Below are positions 246 through 38,040 of a DNA stretch of 38,719 bases, in pieces. A model generated the notes under the pieces. It had not been told where the DNA came from. It worked only from the letters and a program-made list of their open reading frames with translations, and did not search any database. Origin of the DNA: Crenarchaeota archaeon 13_1_40CM_3_52_17 (GTDB lineage Archaea; Thermoproteota; Bathyarchaeia; 40CM-2-53-6). The stretch lies in contig MNGN01000033.1 of assembly GCA_001918745.1 (NCBI GenBank), positions 1-38,719 of the forward strand, given 5' to 3'. Positions within the stretch are counted from its first letter, which is position 1; each line of letters begins with the position of its first letter. The position numbers and the translations under genes were made by a program.

Positions 246-1931
246 TTACTCGACCCCCATGGGTGGAATCTCCAGCTCGAAAGCAGCTACGGGAAGACTG
301 AGACCCCAAGCACGGATTGCCCTGGGATGCAACTCGCCAACCACTCCGAGCCGCTTTTGCCCTGACATTACTTCCCCCGTGCGTCCCTCAAGAAAGCTTG
401 GATGAGTGGTAGGAACAACCTCGAACCTGATTCCGATACTGCCAAGGAGAGTGTCGAGGCAGGATCGAATCTCAGTGAAACCAGCTCCTGTGTGAATCGT
501 GACTCCTGCGATTTTGTATCGAGTTTCAGTGTGACCTTCGCCATTTTCTTTGACGATTACGCATGGGCCGATTTCGAATACTCTCTGAGGGTAATCGACA
601 TGAGTATTGTCCTTGAGCAAATTGAGAACGCTAGGTAGAAGCCAGCTTCTCATTGCGGTATGGGTTGACATTTTCGGATTCAAGAGCTCAGGGTAATTTT
701 CACCTGCTATACCCATCTTGTCAACGAAGACGTCTGGGGAGGTTAGAACGTATGTCAGAAGTTCTTGGTATCCAAGCCCGATCATGACTTCCGCAAGGGT
801 CTCGTGTCTGTCTGTCTCGGGTGCGAGTCCCCCAAGGGTCCAGATTCTCGGCCACTCAGGGTCTAGCTTGTTGATGTTCAGGGCGATCGCGAGATCCTCC
901 ACTAGGTCGACTTGATGCATGATGTCGATGCGATAGCAGAGGCTCTCTACGCGCAAGACGTCTTTGCTCACTTGTCGAGCAGGATGCCCAGCTCTCATGA
1001 AGGCCCGTATCATCTCAGCTGGTTTGAAAGTGGATCCGAGAAGTCTGTTCGCGTAGCTGACCGACAAATCTTTGAAGCTAGATTTCAGGTCCGGCGTGGC
1101 TACCGCCTTGGCGCTCTTGTCCGTGTAGGTTTGAGTGCAGCTGTAGATTTTGCCTCCTCTCTCGGCGAGAGCTGCCACCACAATCTTCAGCGTATTTCCT
1201 ACTGTCTCGATATTCGTACCTGTGACTTCCACAAGGATATTCTTCGTGTCTGAGCCTATCTTGCCGAGGTCGTTGGAGTTGATGATCGGGGGAAGAGATA
1301 GAATCTTGCCATCGCCGTCCGCTAGAAGCGGCCAGTCTTTGAAGGATGAGATTGTTCCCCCGTACTCGATTCCCTTCGGGTGCTTCTCTACGATCTCTCG
1401 AAGCGTCATCTTCTCGGTTGAGCCTAGGGGAACGAACGCTGTATCGTCAGGGTTGCCAACAGTGTAGCGAAGCGGTGGCTTAACCAGGTCGGCCTGGTAG
1501 AATCCGATTGAAGCACGTTTCCTCTTCCTACCGTACGTAAGATCCATTTTTTCTTGGAGGCTTATCCAGCTCTTCAGAGCGTTCTCGTTGGGCCTAACGT
1601 TTCTAACGATGGAGGTTGCAATGAAAGGTCGGATCGGCCCCAGTCTACGATCTACTGTAACTCTCAGACCAGATTTTCCAGAGAGCATTGGGGCCTTGGG
1701 CTTGCCTATGCCGAGATGAGTTCGAAGACCACGTGCGATTCCCTCTACCGACCAGATGTCGGGATGGTTGCTATCTTTGACCTCGATGCTGACGCTATCG
1801 TTCTGTTCGTCGAGGGATTCCACGTCGCCCTTGACATAGGCGAGGAGCTGGTTGAGCCCGTCTTCGTCTCGGGGAACCTTCTGTCCCAGAAGATCCTCTA
1901 GATCGGCCAGAGAGAATTGGACTGAGGGCGT
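246..1931 (-). CDS. pheT: Phenylalanyl-tRNA synthetase beta subunit
   Basis: Beta chain of the alpha2-beta2 PheRS that charges tRNA-Phe; it carries the B3/B4 editing region and the B5 domain. Recognisable stretches include SIEVKDSNHPDIWSVEGIAR near the N-terminus and GYQELLTYVL and NPKMSTHTAMRSWLLPS in the C-terminal catalytic-like domain. The nearest ordinary start is GTG at 1823, but the frame stays open upstream and encodes about 36 more residues (PSVQFSLADLEDLLGQKVP and onward) that match the conserved N-terminus of archaeal PheT, which usually begins Met-Pro. At that position the codon is ACG (1931-1929) followed by CCC, one base after the pheS stop. No ATG, GTG or TTG occurs in frame between an upstream stop and 1823. 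I take ACG as start, giving 561 residues, a normal archaeal length. An AAGGT motif lies 8 bases upstream. A sequencing error is the alternative. Confidence 0.85.
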   Translation of the reverse strand, partial: TPSVQFSLADLEDLLGQKVPRDEDGLNQLLAYVKGDVESLDEQNDSVSIEVKDSNHPDIWSVEGIARGLRTHLGIGKPKAPMLSGKSGLRVTVDRRLGPIRPFIATSIVRNVRPNENALKSWISLQEKMDLTYGRKRKRASIGFYQADLVKPPLRYTVGNPDDTAFVPLGSTEKMTLREIVEKHPKGIEYGGTISSFKDWPLLADGDGKILSLPPIINSNDLGKIGSDTKNILVEVTGTNIETVGNTLKIVVAALAERGGKIYSCTQTYTDKSAKAVATPDLKSSFKDLSVSYANRLLGSTFKPAEMIRAFMRAGHPARQVSKDVLRVESLCYRIDIMHQVDLVEDLAIALNINKLDPEWPRIWTLGGLAPETDRHETLAEVMIGLGYQELLTYVLTSPDVFVDKMGIAGENYPELLNPKMSTHTAMRSWLLPSVLNLLKDNTHVDYPQRVFEIGPCVIVKENGEGHTETRYKIAGVTIHTGAGFTEIRSCLDTLLGSIGIRFEVVPTTHPSFLEGRTGEVMSGQKRLGVVGELHPRAIRAWGLSLPVAAFELEIPPMGVE

Positions 1932-1932
1932 T

Positions 1933-3447
1933 CTAGCCGACCTTCTGTTGCCTTATCCATTCGAGGTCAGTTGTGAAGAGCTGTCTGATGTCTTGGATCT
2001 GCTGGTTCATCATGTATAGCCTGTCGATTCCAAGCCCCCACGCGATTACGGGCACTTTGATGCCAAGGGGTTCAGTGACTTCGGGCCGGAATATCCCACT
2101 GCCGCCAAATTCCATCCAGCCATAGCCTTCCTTGTATGCTTGCAGCTCGACACTGGGTTCAGTGAAGGGGAAATAATCAGGTTTGAACCGGACCTTGTCA
2201 GCCCCCGCGACCTCGCGAGCGAACATCTCTAGGACTCCAAGCAGGTTGCGTAGGCTGAGGGTGGGATCGAGAACAATTCCCTCGGCCTGGTTGAACTCCG
2301 TCAGATGCGTTCTATCGAGGAGCTCCGGCCGGAAGCACCTTGCGATAGCGAAGTATTTGCCTGGAATCTGAAGGTCCTTGGAGATCATTGACCGGACGCT
2401 CAGCGCCGTCCCGTGACTGCGAAGGACTAGCTTGGAGGCTTCTTCTCTCGAGTATTTGTAGCCCCAGCCTGTGGATCCTGTTTTCCAGCCGTTCTCATGA
2501 GTCAAAGCTACCCTTTCCACGATGTCCCTCCATGGTTCCAGGCTCGCTTTGGATGGGTGCTTCAGGTAGTAGAGATCGTGGATTTCTCTCGCTGGATGAT
2601 CTTGCGGCATGTAAAGGCAGTCATCATTGATGAACGTGGGCTCGACGAGAGGTCCGACAGCTTCTCTGAACCCCAGGGCGACGAGCTTCCGTTTGACCAT
2701 TCGTAGGAATCGCAAGTATGGATGATACTTTCCAGGATTAAGCGATGGGACCGGGGAGGAAACGTTGTAGGCTCGGAGGCGGACTCTCTCCCAGTCGCCG
2801 GAGAGAATCATCTCGCTTGTTAGACCGCTGACTTCATTGATAGGAGCTTGGGTTGGAATCGCGTCCAGTCCTTGAAGAGTGATCTGTAGCTTCCGCTGCA
2901 CTTGCTCCTTCGAGGCCAGAATATTCCTCTTGAGAAGTCTATCGGCAGCCTGTTTTAGGGTGCTCGGCAATTCTTCCATTGGAATACTTACCTGGCCGAT
3001 TCTCTCGAGAAGCTCTTCATCGTCGTCTCTTGAAGGATTTTTCGAGACCAGTAGAATAGCGCCTGAGCTTGTTTTCTCGATTCTTCCCCAGCCTTTGCGG
3101 GCAATCCAGCCAGTGACTATTGAGACAAAGTCTAGAGGTAGACCCGCTTCCTGGACGGCTTTGCTGACGGAGAGTTTTCCCCCTGCATTGTGGACGACAG
3201 CAGCGACCCTCCGCTCGGGAAGTCCATTGGCGAGATAATCATACCCTTCATCTGTGCAGAATATTTCAGTCGTTCTTGTTGTCTGTTCCTTAACTAGGCC
3301 CTGTTGTGATAATGTCAGCGATGCACGGGCGACCGCGGCGTCGGCTAGGCCTGTCTTCTTGGCTACCTCTTCAACAGGGGCGGTTCCGCCTGCGTCCCGG
3401 AGAGTCTTCAGAACCTTGACGTCGTTTTCGCGCAATTCCACTTGCAA
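1933..3447 (-). CDS. pheS: Phenylalanyl-tRNA synthetase alpha subunit
   Basis: Catalytic alpha chain of PheRS, 504 residues, the usual archaeal length. The first ~150 residues form winged-helix-like repeats (for example LTLSQQGLVKEQ), the tRNA-contacting N-terminal extension of archaeal/eukaryal PheS. The C-terminal half is a class II synthetase core with HPARE(I)HD, ARCFRPE, the PheS-specific TEFNQAEGIVLD, and motif 3 GLGIDRLYMM close to the C-terminus. Start is TTG at 3447; a GTG two codons later is possible. pheT follows immediately. A TATA-like AAATATAG on the minus strand around 3490 and an imperfect inverted repeat at 3514-3563 lie upstream and may control the operon. Confidence 0.95.
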   Translation of the reverse strand: MQVELRENDVKVLKTLRDAGGTAPVEEVAKKTGLADAAVARASLTLSQQGLVKEQTTRTTEIFCTDEGYDYLANGLPERRVAAVVHNAGGKLSVSKAVQEAGLPLDFVSIVTGWIARKGWGRIEKTSSGAILLVSKNPSRDDDEELLERIGQVSIPMEELPSTLKQAADRLLKRNILASKEQVQRKLQITLQGLDAIPTQAPINEVSGLTSEMILSGDWERVRLRAYNVSSPVPSLNPGKYHPYLRFLRMVKRKLVALGFREAVGPLVEPTFINDDCLYMPQDHPAREIHDLYYLKHPSKASLEPWRDIVERVALTHENGWKTGSTGWGYKYSREEASKLVLRSHGTALSVRSMISKDLQIPGKYFAIARCFRPELLDRTHLTEFNQAEGIVLDPTLSLRNLLGVLEMFAREVAGADKVRFKPDYFPFTEPSVELQAYKEGYGWMEFGGSGIFRPEVTEPLGIKVPVIAWGLGIDRLYMMNQQIQDIRQLFTTDLEWIRQQKVG

Positions 3448-5713: not shown

Positions 5714-6991
5714 ATGGTTGAACAGTCTCAGTACGCTACGACTACAAAATACATAGTAAAAGCACACTTCGACGTTCAAGGTGTCGTCGAGAAACCAGAT
5801 GTTGTCGGGGCAGTTTTCGGACAAACAGAAGGACTCTTCGGACCCGATCTAGACCTTAGAGAACTACAAAAATCAGGAAGAATCGGACGAATCGAGATCA
5901 ACCTCGATTCCAAACGCGACAAGACAACAGGATCAATCGTAATACCCTCAAGCCTAGACAAAGTCTCAACAGCCATTATCGCGGCTGCAATTGAGAGCGT
6001 CGACAGAATCGGGCCTTGCGAAGCCAAGATCACACTGGAAAAGGTCGAGGATGTCCGCGAAGAAAAACGGAACGCTATCCTAACCAAGGCGAAGGACATT
6101 CTCCGCAAATGGGTAGTCGAGTCATCCCCCAGCACAGAAGAGGTAGTCAAGGAGGTTGCGTCCTCTCTGAGAGGCGTAGATCTCATCGAGTATGGTCCCG
6201 AGAAACTTCCAGCTGGTCCAGAGGTCGAGAGCGGCTCCCTGATAGTGGTTGAAGGCAGAGCAGACGTCATTCTTCTGATGAAGGTCGGTATCAAGAACGT
6301 GGTCGCGCTCAACGGGACGAAGGTTCCTGATACAATCATCAAACTCACCAAGGACAAGGAAGTCACAGCGTTCCTCGACGGCGATCGAGCTGGAGACCTG
6401 ATTCTCAAAGAACTGCAACAGGTCGCCGACATTGACTATGTCGCGCGCGCGCCCTTCGGCAAGGAGGTTGAGGAGCTCACTCCCAAGGAGCTAATGAAAG
6501 CCCTCAGAGAAAAGGTCCCAATCAATCTCGCTCGACCAATTGAGAGACCAGAAAGAGTTCAGTTCCAACGCCAGGAAAGACCGGAGAGACAAGAACGATA
6601 CGAGAGACCCTACGAGAGAGGATACGGTCCCTCTGAACCCAGAATTGAAGCGCCGCCCATCCCGAGACCCAGTCTTTCACCAACGGTGTTCGAAGCCGCG
6701 AAAGACCTGCGTGGAACTCTGGAGGCAGTGATATTCGACGAGTCAGGAAAGGAGCTATCTCGAATGCCTGTCAGCGAGCTAGCGGAGAAGATTCCAAGTG
6801 TCGAGAACGCGAACTTGATCCTTTTCGACGGAGTTGTTACTCAGAGGCTGTTGGACATTGCGGCAGGCAAGAACATCCGATTCGTCATTGGCGACAGAGT
6901 ATCCGATGGAGCCAAGAAACCACCGAACGTGAACGTAATGACGCTAAGCGATCTATCTTCGTTCAGTCCGGGTCCCACGATTACAAGCTGA
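5714..6991 (+). CDS. dnaG: Archaeal DnaG primase / exosome-associated protein
   Basis: 425 residues. The N-terminal archaeal DnaG domain starts TTKYIVKAHFDVQGVVEKPD and is followed by a Toprim domain at about 173-260. The Toprim glutamate is Glu180 in VVEGRADV, and the metal-binding acidic pair is DGD (222-224) with Asp228 in DGDRAGD. An Arg/Glu/Pro-rich linker (about 277-325) leads to a small C-terminal domain. Archaeal DnaG makes short RNA primers in vitro and is found in the RNA exosome as a poly(A)-binding subunit, so the cellular role could be either. It converges on the family B polymerase gene and overlaps it by 11 bases. Confidence 0.95.
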   Translation: MVEQSQYATTTKYIVKAHFDVQGVVEKPDVVGAVFGQTEGLFGPDLDLRELQKSGRIGRIEINLDSKRDKTTGSIVIPSSLDKVSTAIIAAAIESVDRIGPCEAKITLEKVEDVREEKRNAILTKAKDILRKWVVESSPSTEEVVKEVASSLRGVDLIEYGPEKLPAGPEVESGSLIVVEGRADVILLMKVGIKNVVALNGTKVPDTIIKLTKDKEVTAFLDGDRAGDLILKELQQVADIDYVARAPFGKEVEELTPKELMKALREKVPINLARPIERPERVQFQRQERPERQERYERPYERGYGPSEPRIEAPPIPRPSLSPTVFEAAKDLRGTLEAVIFDESGKELSRMPVSELAEKIPSVENANLILFDGVVTQRLLDIAAGKNIRFVIGDRVSDGAKKPPNVNVMTLSDLSSFSPGPTITS

Positions 6992-9802: not shown

Positions 9803-9824
9803 TCTCCAACTAGGTAGACTTTCA

Positions 9825-11000
9825 ACGTCCTACGCGTCCCAGATCAGAAGAATCGTTGACAAGCATCAACGCTGGCGCGCAGAAGAATGTCTCAACTTAA
9901 TTCCATCTGAGAACGTAACTAGCCATACAGTCCGGCAACTTCTCACCAACGATATGGGCCATCGTTACACTGCATGGGACGGGTTCTACAAGGGAACACG
10001 CTTCATCGACGAGCTAGAAAGCCTAGGAGAGAAACTCGCATGCGAGGTCTTCGGATCTGACTGGGCAAGCCTCCGACCACTCTCCGGGCACATTGCCGAC
10101 ACGATAATGGTATCCACCCTTACGAAACCCGGAGGCTCGATCCTCACCGTCAATCCTTCGAACGGTGGTTATGACGGACTCGGGAACAGAGGCTATCCCC
10201 CATTCGTCAATGTGAAGAATCTCTTTTTCCCATACGATTCTGAACGGATGAATATTGACGTGGAAAAGGCCAAGGCGCTCATCGAGGACGAGAAGCCCTC
10301 TCTCGTCGTGTTTGGCCAATCCTATTTTCTCTTCCCTCACCCGGTCAAGGAGTTGTCCGAAGCTTGCCATGCAGTCGTCTCTCGAGTTGCCTTCGACGCG
10401 TCCCACGTCTTGGGACTGATCGGGGGCGGCGAATTCCAGCATCCGCTGAACGAGGGCGCAGACCTGATGCTCGGCTCCACTCACAAGAGCTTCTTCGGGC
10501 CTCAAGGAGGAATAATCCTCGGAACCTCCCCATTGAAATCGCGAGTCAAGGACCAACAGTTTCCCGGCCTAGTCGATAACGCCCACTGGAACAGGATCGC
10601 AGCTCTAGCATGGGCGTTGGACGAGGTCCGCAGGAGAGGAACGAAATATGCACCTCAAGTAATCGCGAACGCGAAAACCTTGGCCAAAGCGCTTCACGAA
10701 GGAGGTCTACCCGTCAAATGCGCAGACTACGGGTTTACCGAGTCCCACCAGGTCTTCCTCGACATCAACGGCGAAGAGAACGTTAACCGGTTTTCCGAGA
10801 AGCTTGAGGAAGCTAACATGATCGTTGATCATGGAATCCGGCTTGGAACCAACGAGTCTACTAGGCGAGGAATGAAGGCGCGAGACATGGAAAGAATTGC
10901 AGAACTGATCGTAAGAGTCTACAAGGGTGAGGAGCCGAGCCGCGTACGCAGAGCCGCGACAAAGCTGCGGAAAGAGTTCAAGACCATCGAATACACATAA
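9825..11000 (+). CDS. glyA: Serine hydroxymethyltransferase
   Basis: PLP enzyme that interconverts serine and glycine with one-carbon transfer to a folate or archaeal pterin. With the ACG start the product is 391 residues: PLP lysine Lys221 in GSTHKSFFGPQGG, cofactor aspartate Asp191 in FDASHVLG, and C-terminal LGTNESTRRGM. The nearest ordinary start, ATG 9954, would remove the conserved N-terminus RIVDKHQRWRAEECLNLIPS and ENVTS that every SHMT has. Between the in-frame stop at 9732 and 9954 there is no ATG, GTG or TTG. ACG 9825 sits at the expected N-terminus, 7 bases after AGGTAG. A SerB-like phosphatase follows 27 bases downstream, fitting serine/glycine metabolism. Confidence 0.9.
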   Translation, partial: TSYASQIRRIVDKHQRWRAEECLNLIPSENVTSHTVRQLLTNDMGHRYTAWDGFYKGTRFIDELESLGEKLACEVFGSDWASLRPLSGHIADTIMVSTLTKPGGSILTVNPSNGGYDGLGNRGYPPFVNVKNLFFPYDSERMNIDVEKAKALIEDEKPSLVVFGQSYFLFPHPVKELSEACHAVVSRVAFDASHVLGLIGGGEFQHPLNEGADLMLGSTHKSFFGPQGGIILGTSPLKSRVKDQQFPGLVDNAHWNRIAALAWALDEVRRRGTKYAPQVIANAKTLAKALHEGGLPVKCADYGFTESHQVFLDINGEENVNRFSEKLEEANMIVDHGIRLGTNESTRRGMKARDMERIAELIVRVYKGEEPSRVRRAATKLRKEFKTIEYT

Positions 11001-27300: not shown

Positions 27301-27841
27301 CCTCTCAGTCAGGATCGGAGAGCTCGAACGGGAGAAACTAGCAATCCTCGACTTCATGAACGAACTCGAGAGGAAGAAACTTGACACCTTCATGAGCGCT
27401 TACAACAAGGTCAACGAGACATTCCAGAGCATCTTTCGCGAAATGACCGGTGAAGGAAACGGAAGAATGGTATTGGATACTCCGGAAAATCCGTTCGAAG
27501 GCGGACTTGACGTCCTCCTTCAGTTTCCTGGAAAAACAGAGCTCACAATCGGGAGCGCAAGCGGAGGAGAGAAATCCGTCTCGACAGTCTGCTACCTCCT
27601 CGCACTCCAACAAATCCATCCCATGCCATTCTACGTGATGGACGAAATCGATGCACACTTGGATGTGCTAAACGCAAAACGCCTGGCCACCCTTCTTCGG
27701 TCGAGGAGCAGCATGTCCCAGTTCATCGTAATCTCGCTCAAGGATACCACAATATCGAGAGCAGAGAGAGTGTTCGGCGTCTTCATCGATAAAGGCAGCA
27801 GTCAAATCGTGTCCCTGCCCTCAAGAGGAGAAAACAATTGA
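24305..27841 (+). CDS. smc: Chromosome segregation ATPase SMC
   Basis: 1178 residues, full-length SMC. Start TTG gives MVFIKRIDIRGFKTFNKK, the usual N-terminus. Walker A is GPNGSGKS (32-39), Q-loop region FNLISQ near 138, two long coiled coils flank the hinge (about 520-670, with GALKGVYGRLEDLV and a Gly-rich LYEPGGGLESG), the ABC signature SASGGEKS lies near 1083 and Walker B YVMDEIDAHLD near 1109. With ScpA and ScpB it forms the condensin-like ring that compacts and segregates DNA. Its stop overlaps the scpA start (TTGA). Confidence 0.97.
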   Translation: MVFIKRIDIRGFKTFNKKVSINLSTGFTVITGPNGSGKSNILDSLKFALGELSPRELRGRSLSDLVHKSQGEGARSAYVAVQFDNSDRKLPVDSDLVTISREFSKGGEGIYRINGRRLSRKQVQDVMSSADIQVTGFNLISQHAITHLAEISTEERRRILESLIGIGTFETKKAEARVQLQEADLNLKVAAARVDEVRQRIEQLERERNDLLRFNLLKTEINSQQARIFSAQILALANRHQEMLQTLEQEQIKLDQVRREREDLTQQRAQIEQDRRSFEEKTVTRGNQELFDLERRIAEASKGFVEAKSAADTAKNLVATRTRQREAFTKQAEEMETSIKPLASSIKSLQSHKKVLQEKLEASTSKVEKISQKVTAGRSSLDQDAKNLREVQDEIDGLGKELSNLTAQSKGSSTKLDLTASHLQTLEARQKEFAQLSEELKTRIREMERLQKEEERRLESIEQRTKEYGELKDQRRKEIDEALDIAKKARVAVVEFNTQKNLADNLGAEDKAIEKIEEMADEGALKGVYGRLEDLVKFPEEYRKAIQAASAGWMKALVVKNLDVAIRCVESLKRTKLGRVKIVPIEDLELSDLELDTDSVSGIIGPLSKVIRSDKSIAPAVQFVFGDTILATTQRAAFLTASKGQRCVVTSGDLYEPGGGLESGYYRAPLEISNIVPRSTALESLERTVKSLETVVQRSRSDVDRIETELDELLEDRVSASKTREALARDVELAKKSFERTRTFLQQTTRRIDSLQNSMAKEQVLLEETAEKQAQMKRRLAVIEEERARLRLDSRRTSLSQLETERDQVTAENQVILRETLELETRLSSQQSKLETLRPGIDQIRIQLRSLDSEIHREETRANEAHQQLETLEKEMKQFNEEKQRLVGNLDSVGVERKKYEEQFVEIEKATRRLLQMMDPLNASVTDLKAGLREVDAQLTIFKGQLRSLGFETPLETHPALIKEAEDMKRVLEQERDEIGAINQLAAQQYESQKEGYKHLSVRIGELEREKLAILDFMNELERKKLDTFMSAYNKVNETFQSIFREMTGEGNGRMVLDTPENPFEGGLDVLLQFPGKTELTIGSASGGEKSVSTVCYLLALQQIHPMPFYVMDEIDAHLDVLNAKRLATLLRSRSSMSQFIVISLKDTTISRAERVFGVFIDKGSSQIVSLPSRGENN

Positions 27842-28515
27842 CAATTCACGAAGAAGCATACTGGCTGAAAGCACCCTATGCCGTCCTCTTTGACCTGATC
27901 CATCTTCACCGCGTCAAACCATGGGACGTGAACCTCGCAAATCTACTGGATGAGCTTCTCCATGAGATGAGAGGTCGAGGATTCATCGACTTTTCTGTCT
28001 CCGGCACCGCCCTCCTCTCATCTGCAATCCTCCTGAGGATGAAGTCAGAACTCATCCTCAAAATGGAAGAACCGCCGAAGCCGCCGCTCGAGAGGCCGAC
28101 AGACTTCGTCCCTCCTCCCCTATCTTTTCCTCTGCGCTATGAATCGACAACTACGTCCGTCGAGGAAGTCATCAAGGGATTGCTGGAGGTGTTAACGGCG
28201 GAGAGAATGCTTCCTGCAAGCGCACAGATGGTTCTCAGAACACCAGAGGTGTTTGAGCAAGTCGACGATTTCCTTGTCAAGATAGAGGAGAATATCAAAG
28301 CCTTCCTGCGAAGACTCCTCACAGAAGCGGGCACTACACGGAAGAAACATTCCTTTCTGGCCCTTCTGGGAAAAGGCGACCCTCTCGAAGCGGTCAGAAT
28401 GTTCATCATGCTGCTATTCTTAGCCGTCGAGGGAAGAGTTGGCCTCGCCCAGCCCCTAGAGTTCGGTGACATCGAGATCGAGCTGAAAGACGATGGAAGC
28501 ACAAGTTTCGACTAA
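27838..28515 (+). CDS. scpA: Kleisin subunit ScpA
   Basis: 225 residues from TTG overlapping the smc stop by four bases. The N-terminal kleisin helices read YAVLFDLIHLHRVKPWDVNL and LANLLDELLHEM, then FSVSGTALLSSAILLRMKSE, typical of ScpA binding the SMC neck. The C-terminal winged helix (DPLEAVRMFIMLLFLAVEGR and VGLAQPLEFGDIEIEL) would bind the SMC cap. It overlaps scpB by 23 bases, so the three proteins are translationally coupled. Confidence 0.93.
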   Translation: MTIHEEAYWLKAPYAVLFDLIHLHRVKPWDVNLANLLDELLHEMRGRGFIDFSVSGTALLSSAILLRMKSELILKMEEPPKPPLERPTDFVPPPLSFPLRYESTTTSVEEVIKGLLEVLTAERMLPASAQMVLRTPEVFEQVDDFLVKIEENIKAFLRRLLTEAGTTRKKHSFLALLGKGDPLEAVRMFIMLLFLAVEGRVGLAQPLEFGDIEIELKDDGSTSFD

Positions 28516-37167: not shown

Positions 37168-37266
37168 GAATTGTACGTCTTTGTAACTGCTAGATTGGTC
37201 TGGGGCATATTAGCACGAAGTGTATAGGTGAGTGCATCTGAACACAATGCAACACGGTGAAGACTA

Positions 37267-38040
37267 ACGTACCGTGTTCGGCTTGTACACTGGAACGAGG
37301 TCGAAGCGAAACAGAAATCACACCAGCTTTCCTCTGCTGGATATCTCGTGAAATACGACAAGATCACTCCAGATCTGCTCCCGGAAAGGGAAAATCCCTC
37401 GGACGCTATTGTAATTGATCTTTCTCGGCTACCCTCTCAAGGACGAGACATGGCTATGGCATTAAGGTCCTACAAGTCTACTCGGACAATACCCTTGGTC
37501 TTTGTAGATGGAGACAATGAGAAACTCAAAAGAGTCAAGGCTCAGATTCCAGACGCAACCTACACAAAATGGGATCAGGTGGTCGAAGAATTGGAAGAGA
37601 TCCTCACGCACCCTCCGACAGAATCCCCGCGCGTCCGATCGCGCCTAGAGGGATATGCAGGTGTGCCTCTCCACCAGAAGCTTGGAATCAAATCGGGATA
37701 CACCGTTTCCCTAGTTGGGGCACCTCTAGGGTTCCGACAAGTCTTGGGCGAATTACCTGAAAATGTGGTAGTACGAGATGGTGTGAGAGGCCAATCCAAC
37801 CTGACCATATGGTTCGCAAAGTCCCGAAAAGAATTGGAAGAGAGACTACAACGTATGAGAGTTTTTTCAAAAAACGCTGGGTTATGGATTGTCTGGCCGA
37901 AGCAGACCTCAAGACTTCACACCGACCTAGGGCAACCGGTAGTCAGGGAGGCAGGCATAGCCGTTGGGATGGTTGATTTCAAAATCTGTTCGATTGATAA
38001 TACTTGGTCCGGCCTTCGATTTACTCTGAGAGGGAAGTAA
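37267..38040 (+). CDS. Receiver-like plus DUF3052 protein
   Basis: 257 residues with ACG start. The N-terminal part resembles a degenerate response-regulator receiver (YRVRLVHWNEVEAKQKSHQL, AIVIDLSRLPSQGRDMAMAL, TIPLVFVDGDNEKLKRV). The C-terminal DUF3052 part has LHQKLGIKSGYTVSLVGAPL, LTIWFAKSRKELEERL, GLWIVWPKQTSRL and DNTWSGLRFTLR. The nearest ordinary start is GTG 37348, which would cut off the first beta strand and helix of the receiver-like domain. No ATG, GTG or TTG lies in frame between the stop at 37258 and 37348. ACG 37267 sits 7 bases after GGTGA and at the expected N-terminus. Function is unknown. Confidence 0.82.
   Translation, partial: TYRVRLVHWNEVEAKQKSHQLSSAGYLVKYDKITPDLLPERENPSDAIVIDLSRLPSQGRDMAMALRSYKSTRTIPLVFVDGDNEKLKRVKAQIPDATYTKWDQVVEELEEILTHPPTESPRVRSRLEGYAGVPLHQKLGIKSGYTVSLVGAPLGFRQVLGELPENVVVRDGVRGQSNLTIWFAKSRKELEERLQRMRVFSKNAGLWIVWPKQTSRLHTDLGQPVVREAGIAVGMVDFKICSIDNTWSGLRFTLRGK

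Follow-up and report, generated by a model that had tools for sequence, protein, structure and literature searches.

ACG is most likely a genuine and recurrent start codon in a family of soil Bathyarchaeia, in which the ordinary initiator Met-tRNA (Met-tRNAi; anticodon CAU) would read it with a single mismatch. The window analysed here, a stretch of 38,719 nucleotides, is contig C39 of the archaeal assembly G000 (1.78 Mb, 80% complete), the metagenome-assembled genome (MAG) of a soil bathyarchaeote; the named genomes close to it, BA_19 to BA_25 among them, are MAGs of soil 'Candidatus Bathyarchaeota'. A preliminary description of this DNA had noted ACG at the beginning of three genes, and proposed real ACG initiation in the lineage, perhaps with an unusual initiator tRNA or initiation factor. 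Besides the gene at 37267, that description left the ACG genes unnamed, and we took the other two to be pheT and glyA (Table 1).

Table 1. Features at and around the proposed ACG starts in the window.
Feature	Position	Strand	Remark
pheT, Phe-tRNA synthetase beta chain, 561 aa from ACG	246-1931	-	Pfam B5 and tRNA_synthFbeta; earliest canonical start GTG 1823
ACG, proposed pheT start codon	1929-1931	-	one base past the pheS TAG stop (1935-1933)
pheS-like gene (presumed) upstream of pheT, TTG start	1933-3447	-	ORF list
AGGT, Shine-Dalgarno-like	9812-9815	+	9 nt 5' of the glyA ACG
glyA, serine hydroxymethyltransferase, 391 aa from ACG	9825-11000	+	Pfam SHMT
ACG, proposed glyA start codon	9825-9827	+	conserved in the family
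GGTGA, Shine-Dalgarno-like	37256-37260	+	6 nt 5' of ACG 37267; overlaps in-frame TGA 37258-37260
Receiver-like/DUF3052-like gene, 257 aa counted from ACG	37267-38040	+	C-terminal part weakly DUF3052-like
ACG, proposed start codon of the receiver-like/DUF3052-like gene	37267-37269	+	from sequence; ACG also in G017
GTT, codon 4, alternative start position	37276-37278	+	GTG in five relatives
GTG, earliest canonical start of the 37267 gene	37348-37350	+	would cut an N-terminal stretch conserved in relatives

Judging from the alignments of orthologues, ACG is almost certainly the true start of pheT. The ORF immediately upstream is presumably a pheS-like gene, a name that we assigned from its sequence and its position in the operon. 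A match to pheT was present in 34 out of 41 genomes; its start was read in 29, of which 16 belong to the family and 13 do not. Within the family, the first codon was ACG in 14 genomes, ATG in G003 and CTG in G019; all 14 genomes of the genus that were read, apart from G003, had ACG, as did G018 beyond the genus. Seven of the 14 ACG rows carry an in-frame stop two codons upstream. The 13 genomes outside the family displayed ATG (6), TTG (3), CTG (2; G024 and G029) and ACG (2; G026 and G030). A count over named genomes, which overlap the G-numbered set and are thus not independent of it, covered 74 of 80 pheT loci (six were left out, as the match started at residue 4 or later) and gave ATG 50, ACG 14, GTG 5, TTG 5 and no other codon. 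The 14 ACG loci comprised 12 of the 13 soil-clade loci together with B26-1 and A05DMB-3. Beyond the soil family, ACG at the start of pheT was observed in G030, G026, B26-1 and A05DMB-3, and tolerance of this codon may extend more widely within Bathyarchaeia, as far as sequences tell.

We hold the ACG of glyA to be its true start with the same near certainty, again from comparison of orthologues. The gene was found in 40 of 41 genomes, and among the 18 starts read, 15 came from the family; 14 of these were ACG, found in all 13 genus genomes and in G018. In the remaining genome, G020, the aligned codon is CCA, with TTG immediately before it, and none of the family genomes read has a canonical codon at the exact position of the ACG. 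An in-frame stop lies four codons upstream in six of the 14 ACG rows, and three genomes (G017, G016 and G002) carry ATG or TTG 2-5 codons 5' of the ACG. In the window, the earliest canonical codon of glyA, ATG 9954, falls within the SHMT domain.

The two genes also reveal what is being conserved. In 15 pheT and 14 glyA rows (counted without the CTG of G019 pheT and the CCA of G020 glyA), the first codon was ACG 28 times and ATG once, and never ACA, ACC or ACT. ACG makes up 23% of threonine codons, and each invariant residue among the following eleven is encoded by two or more codons in the same rows. As ACG is never swapped for a synonymous threonine codon while its neighbours vary synonymously, the start triplet is conserved rather than the amino acid.

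The 37267 gene is the weakest case among the three ACG genes of the window. Its frame reads TGA (37258-37260) AGA CTA ACG (37267-37269) TAC CGT GTT CGG CTT GTA CAC TGG and, exactly as the preliminary description stated, the TGA at 37258 is followed by no in-frame ATG, GTG or TTG until the GTG at 37348. The gene was matched in 12 of 61 genomes. Its closest relative, in G017 (79% identical), has ACG at the homologous start position, behind the same GGTGA motif at the same spacing of 6 bases. The leader (window 37177-37266, ~90 nt) is nearly identical between the two genomes, though the protein is only 79% identical. At the position homologous to the ACG, TTG stands in G004, G013 and G014, and TTA in G015, where GTG occurs three codons upstream. 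The copy in G005 has its frame off by one base, and those of other relatives are partial or broken; we saw split or interrupted copies in G007, G014, G010 and G006. Possibly the gene is not essential or decays quickly. The DUF3052 label given to it earlier turned out to be weak, since Pfam PF11253 matched the C-terminal part only, with E = 0.034 and 14.5 bits against a gathering cut-off of 22.7, and the structure prediction (mean pLDDT 34.3) was not usable. Codon 4 is GTT in G000 and GTG in five relatives, and our automatic census (see below) set the start column there instead of at the ACG. A start at codon 4 is accordingly a live alternative on the sequences compared, though GTT is itself non-canonical, and this gene alone would leave doubt. 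On balance, we regard ACG 37267 as the probable start of its gene.

To the three genes of the window we can add a census of start codons over stretches of ten family genomes and a 3-kb piece of an eleventh, comprising 154 non-overlapping orthologue groups with at least three genomes each. A start column was set in 121 groups; in 32, including those of pheT and glyA, none could be set, and in one the onset of conservation was indistinct. The start columns, which are not independent events, contained ATG in 281 slots, TTG in 210, GTG in 79 and non-canonical codons in 48. Over all slots, there were eight ACG, ten CTG, no TCG and no GCG. In 24 non-canonical slots no canonical codon was present nearby, and these were occupied by CTG (8), ACG (7), ATC (2), ATA (2) and five other codons once each, one of the five being the GTT of the 37267 gene. 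The eighth ACG slot, in a HAD-like gene of G016, has ATG upstream and was left out of the seven. Nineteen of the 24 codons are one mismatch from AUG, with AAG and AGG absent, and ACG accounts for 7/24 as compared with 1.14% of the codons just downstream. ACG is thus one of several odd start codons, CTG being equally common and ATA present as well.

The ACG slots fall in recognisable genes. ACG stands where orthologues have ATG in two genes that, from sequence, we take to be dnaG (G018) and scpB (G017), and where orthologues have ATG or TTG in genes for 3-hydroxyacyl-CoA dehydrogenase (3HCDH; G005 and G017), a methionine-synthase-like protein (G003), a thiolase-like protein (G005) and a DUF4331 protein (G017). 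In the dnaG of G018, a stop and two codons precede the ACG, and 122 codons without a canonical codon follow it, while all eight orthologues have ATG. The ACG of the methionine-synthase-like gene comes directly after a stop, with no codon between, and a single codon separates the in-frame stop from the ACG in the DUF4331 gene. In an M48-peptidase-like gene, ACG is found in five of five genomes, with 26 or more codons lacking a canonical codon. Including pheT, glyA and the 37267 gene, about ten gene families have an ACG start. Two further genes drew our attention for other codons. A presumably GatE-like gene in G005 (C37, minus strand, 634-aa ORF), G013 and G017 lacks any canonical start codon close to the N-terminus; counted from the stop, its third codon is ATA in G005 and G013 and CCA in G017, where no near-cognate codon was seen. 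In a gene that we take to be scpA-like (window 27838-28515), the start column is CTG in four of eight genomes and TTG in the other four.

Pairwise comparisons were used as a control. Non-canonical slots with no alternative numbered 16/294 for G005-G013, 9/218 for G005-G017, 14/220 for G013-G017, 6/70 for G003-G016, 5/66 for G013-G003 and 4/32 for G005-G018, of which 2, 3, 3, 2, 2 and 1, respectively, were ACG. Two sister-lineage pairs (G028-G031 and G029-G024) gave 0/144. All soil pairs differed from this value (P ≤ 0.013), but their slots include some columns that were wrongly chosen. When ACG and CTG only were counted, G005-G013 retained 10/294 against 0/144 (P = 0.035). For ACG alone, soil pairs did not differ significantly from the sister 0/144 (2/294, P = 1; G013-G017, 3/220, P = 0.28), a control that is too small for this comparison. 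Nor are the sister lineages free of odd starts, because pheT, one of the genes without a column, begins with CTG in G024 and G029.

The above data allow rival explanations to be weighed. Firstly, translation might start elsewhere, at an unrecognised nearby codon, such as the GTT at codon 4 of the 37267 gene, or at a canonical codon upstream, with ACG being an ordinary threonine codon. The five relatives with GTG at codon 4 and the three glyA orthologues with an upstream ATG or TTG are what this idea has in its favour. Nevertheless, in-frame stops occur 0-4 codons 5' of the ACG in many genomes, and the interval from the preceding in-frame stop to the conserved coding region contains no canonical start in the 37267 gene, pheT and glyA of G000, dnaG of G018 or the methionine-synthase-like gene of G003. 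The triplet is invariant among synonymously variable neighbours, and its position is homologous to canonical starts, namely ATG, GTG or TTG in pheT, ATG in dnaG and scpB, and ATG or TTG in the 3HCDH gene; orthologues of pheT, dnaG and scpB carry ATG at precisely the position of the ACG. We therefore consider a start elsewhere improbable as a general explanation.

Secondly, C-to-U editing of mRNA could make AUG from ACG prior to translation, as in some plant organelle genes. ACG and CTG, the commonest odd codons, are each one C-to-U change away from a canonical start, and edited ACG starts have been described for chloroplasts (PMC9845219). However, editing should equally rescue TCG (to TTG) and GCG (to GTG), neither of which appeared in the census against eight ACG and ten CTG. 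The looser pairwise comparisons did yield a few TCG and GCG slots, in which the columns inspected seem wrongly chosen; in two TCG cases, a shared TTG lies a few codons on. Editing also cannot explain the odd codons ATA, ATC and TTA. We rate it as improbable as a start elsewhere.

Thirdly, T might have been read as C in sequencing or assembly, or the genes might be decayed; the genomes are indeed metagenome assemblies, and the 37267 gene is broken in some relatives. Such errors can hardly produce the same ACG in 14 family MAGs each for pheT and glyA, and in pheT of G026, G030, B26-1 and A05DMB-3 in addition. With ACG at homologous starts in separate MAGs, alternating with ATG, TTG and CTG, the comparison upholds the original proposal of real initiation in the lineage rather than base errors.

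Lastly, a genome-wide recoding of ACG, or a second initiator tRNA with a CGU anticodon, is just as implausible as sequencing error, and we came across nothing in its favour. Among differing partners, internal ACG is matched by threonine in 70.2% and by methionine in 1.8%, a pattern shared by ACA and ACC, and we therefore reject a change of the genetic code from threonine to methionine. In G000, the initiator tRNA (contig C1 near 6,780-6,850, minus strand), GGGCTCATAACCC, has the anticodon CAU and a GGG/CCC anticodon stem. Two anticodon-arm patterns missed this gene and a T-arm pattern returned noise only, probably owing to introns; the gene was located by scanning with the 17-mer of the initiator 5' end (2 mismatches), which gave one match in G000 (5' end at C1 near 6,834-6,850, minus strand). 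The same CAU anticodon arm was found in G004, G009, G010, G013, G014, G016 and G017, and no CGU-anticodon initiator was detected in these seven genus genomes or in G000, which is 80% complete. In G018 and the remaining genus genomes, including the ACG users G005 and G003, the scan located no initiator tRNA. The suggestion of an unusual initiator tRNA consequently fails for G000 and the relatives in which the gene was found, both anticodon and stem being ordinary. The initiator tRNA gene in this genus apparently has two introns, in the variable loop and the T loop. Other tRNAs of these genomes also have introns at unusual places, and ARAGORN reported 4 of the 14 G000 tRNAs that were scored by Rfam.

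Shine-Dalgarno matches hardly tell ACG starts from controls. Matches of at least four bases precede 61% of ACG starts, 45% of ATG starts and 37% of internal ACG codons in a biased sample, in which the ACG rows come mostly from two families and include wrong columns. This set contains six scpB rows from a wrong column, two rows of a short ORF with a doubtful column, and two rows in which a canonical codon lies upstream (the HAD-like gene of G016 and a transporter-like gene of G005). None of our conclusions draws on this sample or on its ACG counts per genome.

Could an initiation factor be responsible? SUI1 (aIF1-like) proteins are expanded in the soil family. Among 18 genus genomes, 13 had three SUI1 matches (some of those in G002 being contig-end fragments), three had two and two had one; in other family members, G018 had three, G020 two and G019 none. 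Outside the family, all 18 genomes with a match had one each. In a further set, 16 genomes had one each, three had none and G080 had three, where one of the single-SUI1 genomes looks like G039 again and G080 looks like G009 again. The expansion is one evolutionary event. We read the soil-family proteins encoded at contigs C7 and C62 of G000 and C46 and C43 of G017. Copy 1 is an ordinary zinc-type aIF1, nearly identical in the eight family sequences read, while copies 2 and 3 are without the zinc N-terminus and copy 3 lacks the basic RKWGKP-type loop. Single-SUI1 genomes with an ACG pheT do exist (G026, G030 and A05DMB-3, the last corresponding to G062), indicating that extra SUI1 proteins are not required for ACG at single genes and weakening aIF1 copy number as the whole cause. 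In B26-1 (G061), which also has an ACG pheT, SUI1 was not found. A cause in the initiation machinery via the extra aIF1 paralogues is, as judged from sequence, a lead only.

Taken together, ACG occupies start positions and is constrained there as a triplet, internal ACG pairs with threonine, and the initiator tRNAs of G000 and of seven other genomes in the genus carry CAU, as far as genome comparison can establish. With internal ACG being threonine and the initiator anticodon being CAU, ACG at starts is most simply read by Met-tRNAi through one mismatch, with C facing A at position 2 of the codon. We propose that the 30S subunit would be positioned by the Shine-Dalgarno-like motif or by coupling to the upstream stop, and that the ordinary initiator would then accept ACG. 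The same initiator would also take CTG and, occasionally, ATA, and the resulting protein would presumably start with methionine. The tolerance may come from looser start-codon checking, perhaps tied to the extra aIF1 paralogues. It is attractive to speculate further that checking is relaxed or adjustable through these proteins, which would make ACG and CTG permanent, regulated starts, with pheT and glyA answering to the balance of aIF1 variants. We regard this extension as rather unlikely, the ACG pheT of G030, another single-SUI1 genome, having lowered its odds. If it is genuinely the case, the system would be an archaeal counterpart of the IF3 control of infC and sigR, extending over a few per cent of genes.

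The ribosomes of this soil family probably choose starts less strictly than expected. The repeated use of ACG at essential genes together with an ordinary initiator anticodon means that comparison can be used to test how stringently archaea select their starts, with the extra aIF1 paralogues as a concrete candidate. There is a practical consequence as well. The starts listed in NCBI translation table 11 are ATG, GTG, TTG, CTG, ATT, ATC and ATA, and ACG is absent. Since ACG is outside the starts of standard prokaryotic gene finders, annotations of the lineage probably shorten or overlook pheT, glyA and other genes. A review of archaeal initiation deals with AUG, GUG and UUG starts, with no mention of ACG in the portion of its text consulted (PMC7531240). 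A study that traced start-codon switches across 36 prokaryote groups reported, for 61,358 ancestral AUG starts, two switches to CUG and one to AUU; ACG is not mentioned in the text available to us, and the underlying gene calls may not have allowed it (PMC5622118). In the part of the open-access literature covered, we found no description of natural ACG starts in archaea, the listed papers on ACG starts appearing, by title, to be eukaryotic, viral, organellar or synthetic.

Several known systems resemble the one described here in part. In bacteria, non-canonical starts such as ATT or ATC of infC and GTC of Streptomyces sigR are reported to be repressed by IF3 (PMC5472188). These are likewise natural genes starting at a codon outside ATG, GTG and TTG, and are governed by a fidelity factor; nevertheless, they are single bacterial genes tested at the bench, whereas in the soil archaea ACG recurs, as known from sequence, in about ten gene families. 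Near-cognate initiation at ACG, with the same single mismatch to AUG, is documented for yeast, other eukaryotes and viruses (PMC6898956). The eukaryotic cases listed concern upstream ORFs, isoforms and viral proteins, at low level in yeast, while in the soil archaea ACG would be the sole start of main, partly essential genes. Plant organelles share with the soil family a genomic ACG where relatives have ATG, and there the codon is edited from C to U (PMC9845219); the codon pattern of the soil archaea, with neither TCG nor GCG in the census, argues against editing in their case. Closest to the proposed cause is the aIF1 of Sulfolobus, which discriminates against non-canonical starts, much as its eukaryotic relative eIF1 guards against non-AUG starts (both PMC6237735, as far as the text was available). 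The soil family also has an ordinary zinc-type aIF1; unlike Sulfolobus, it possesses as many as two additional SUI1 proteins that lack the zinc N-terminus, and in one of these the RKWGKP loop is missing too.
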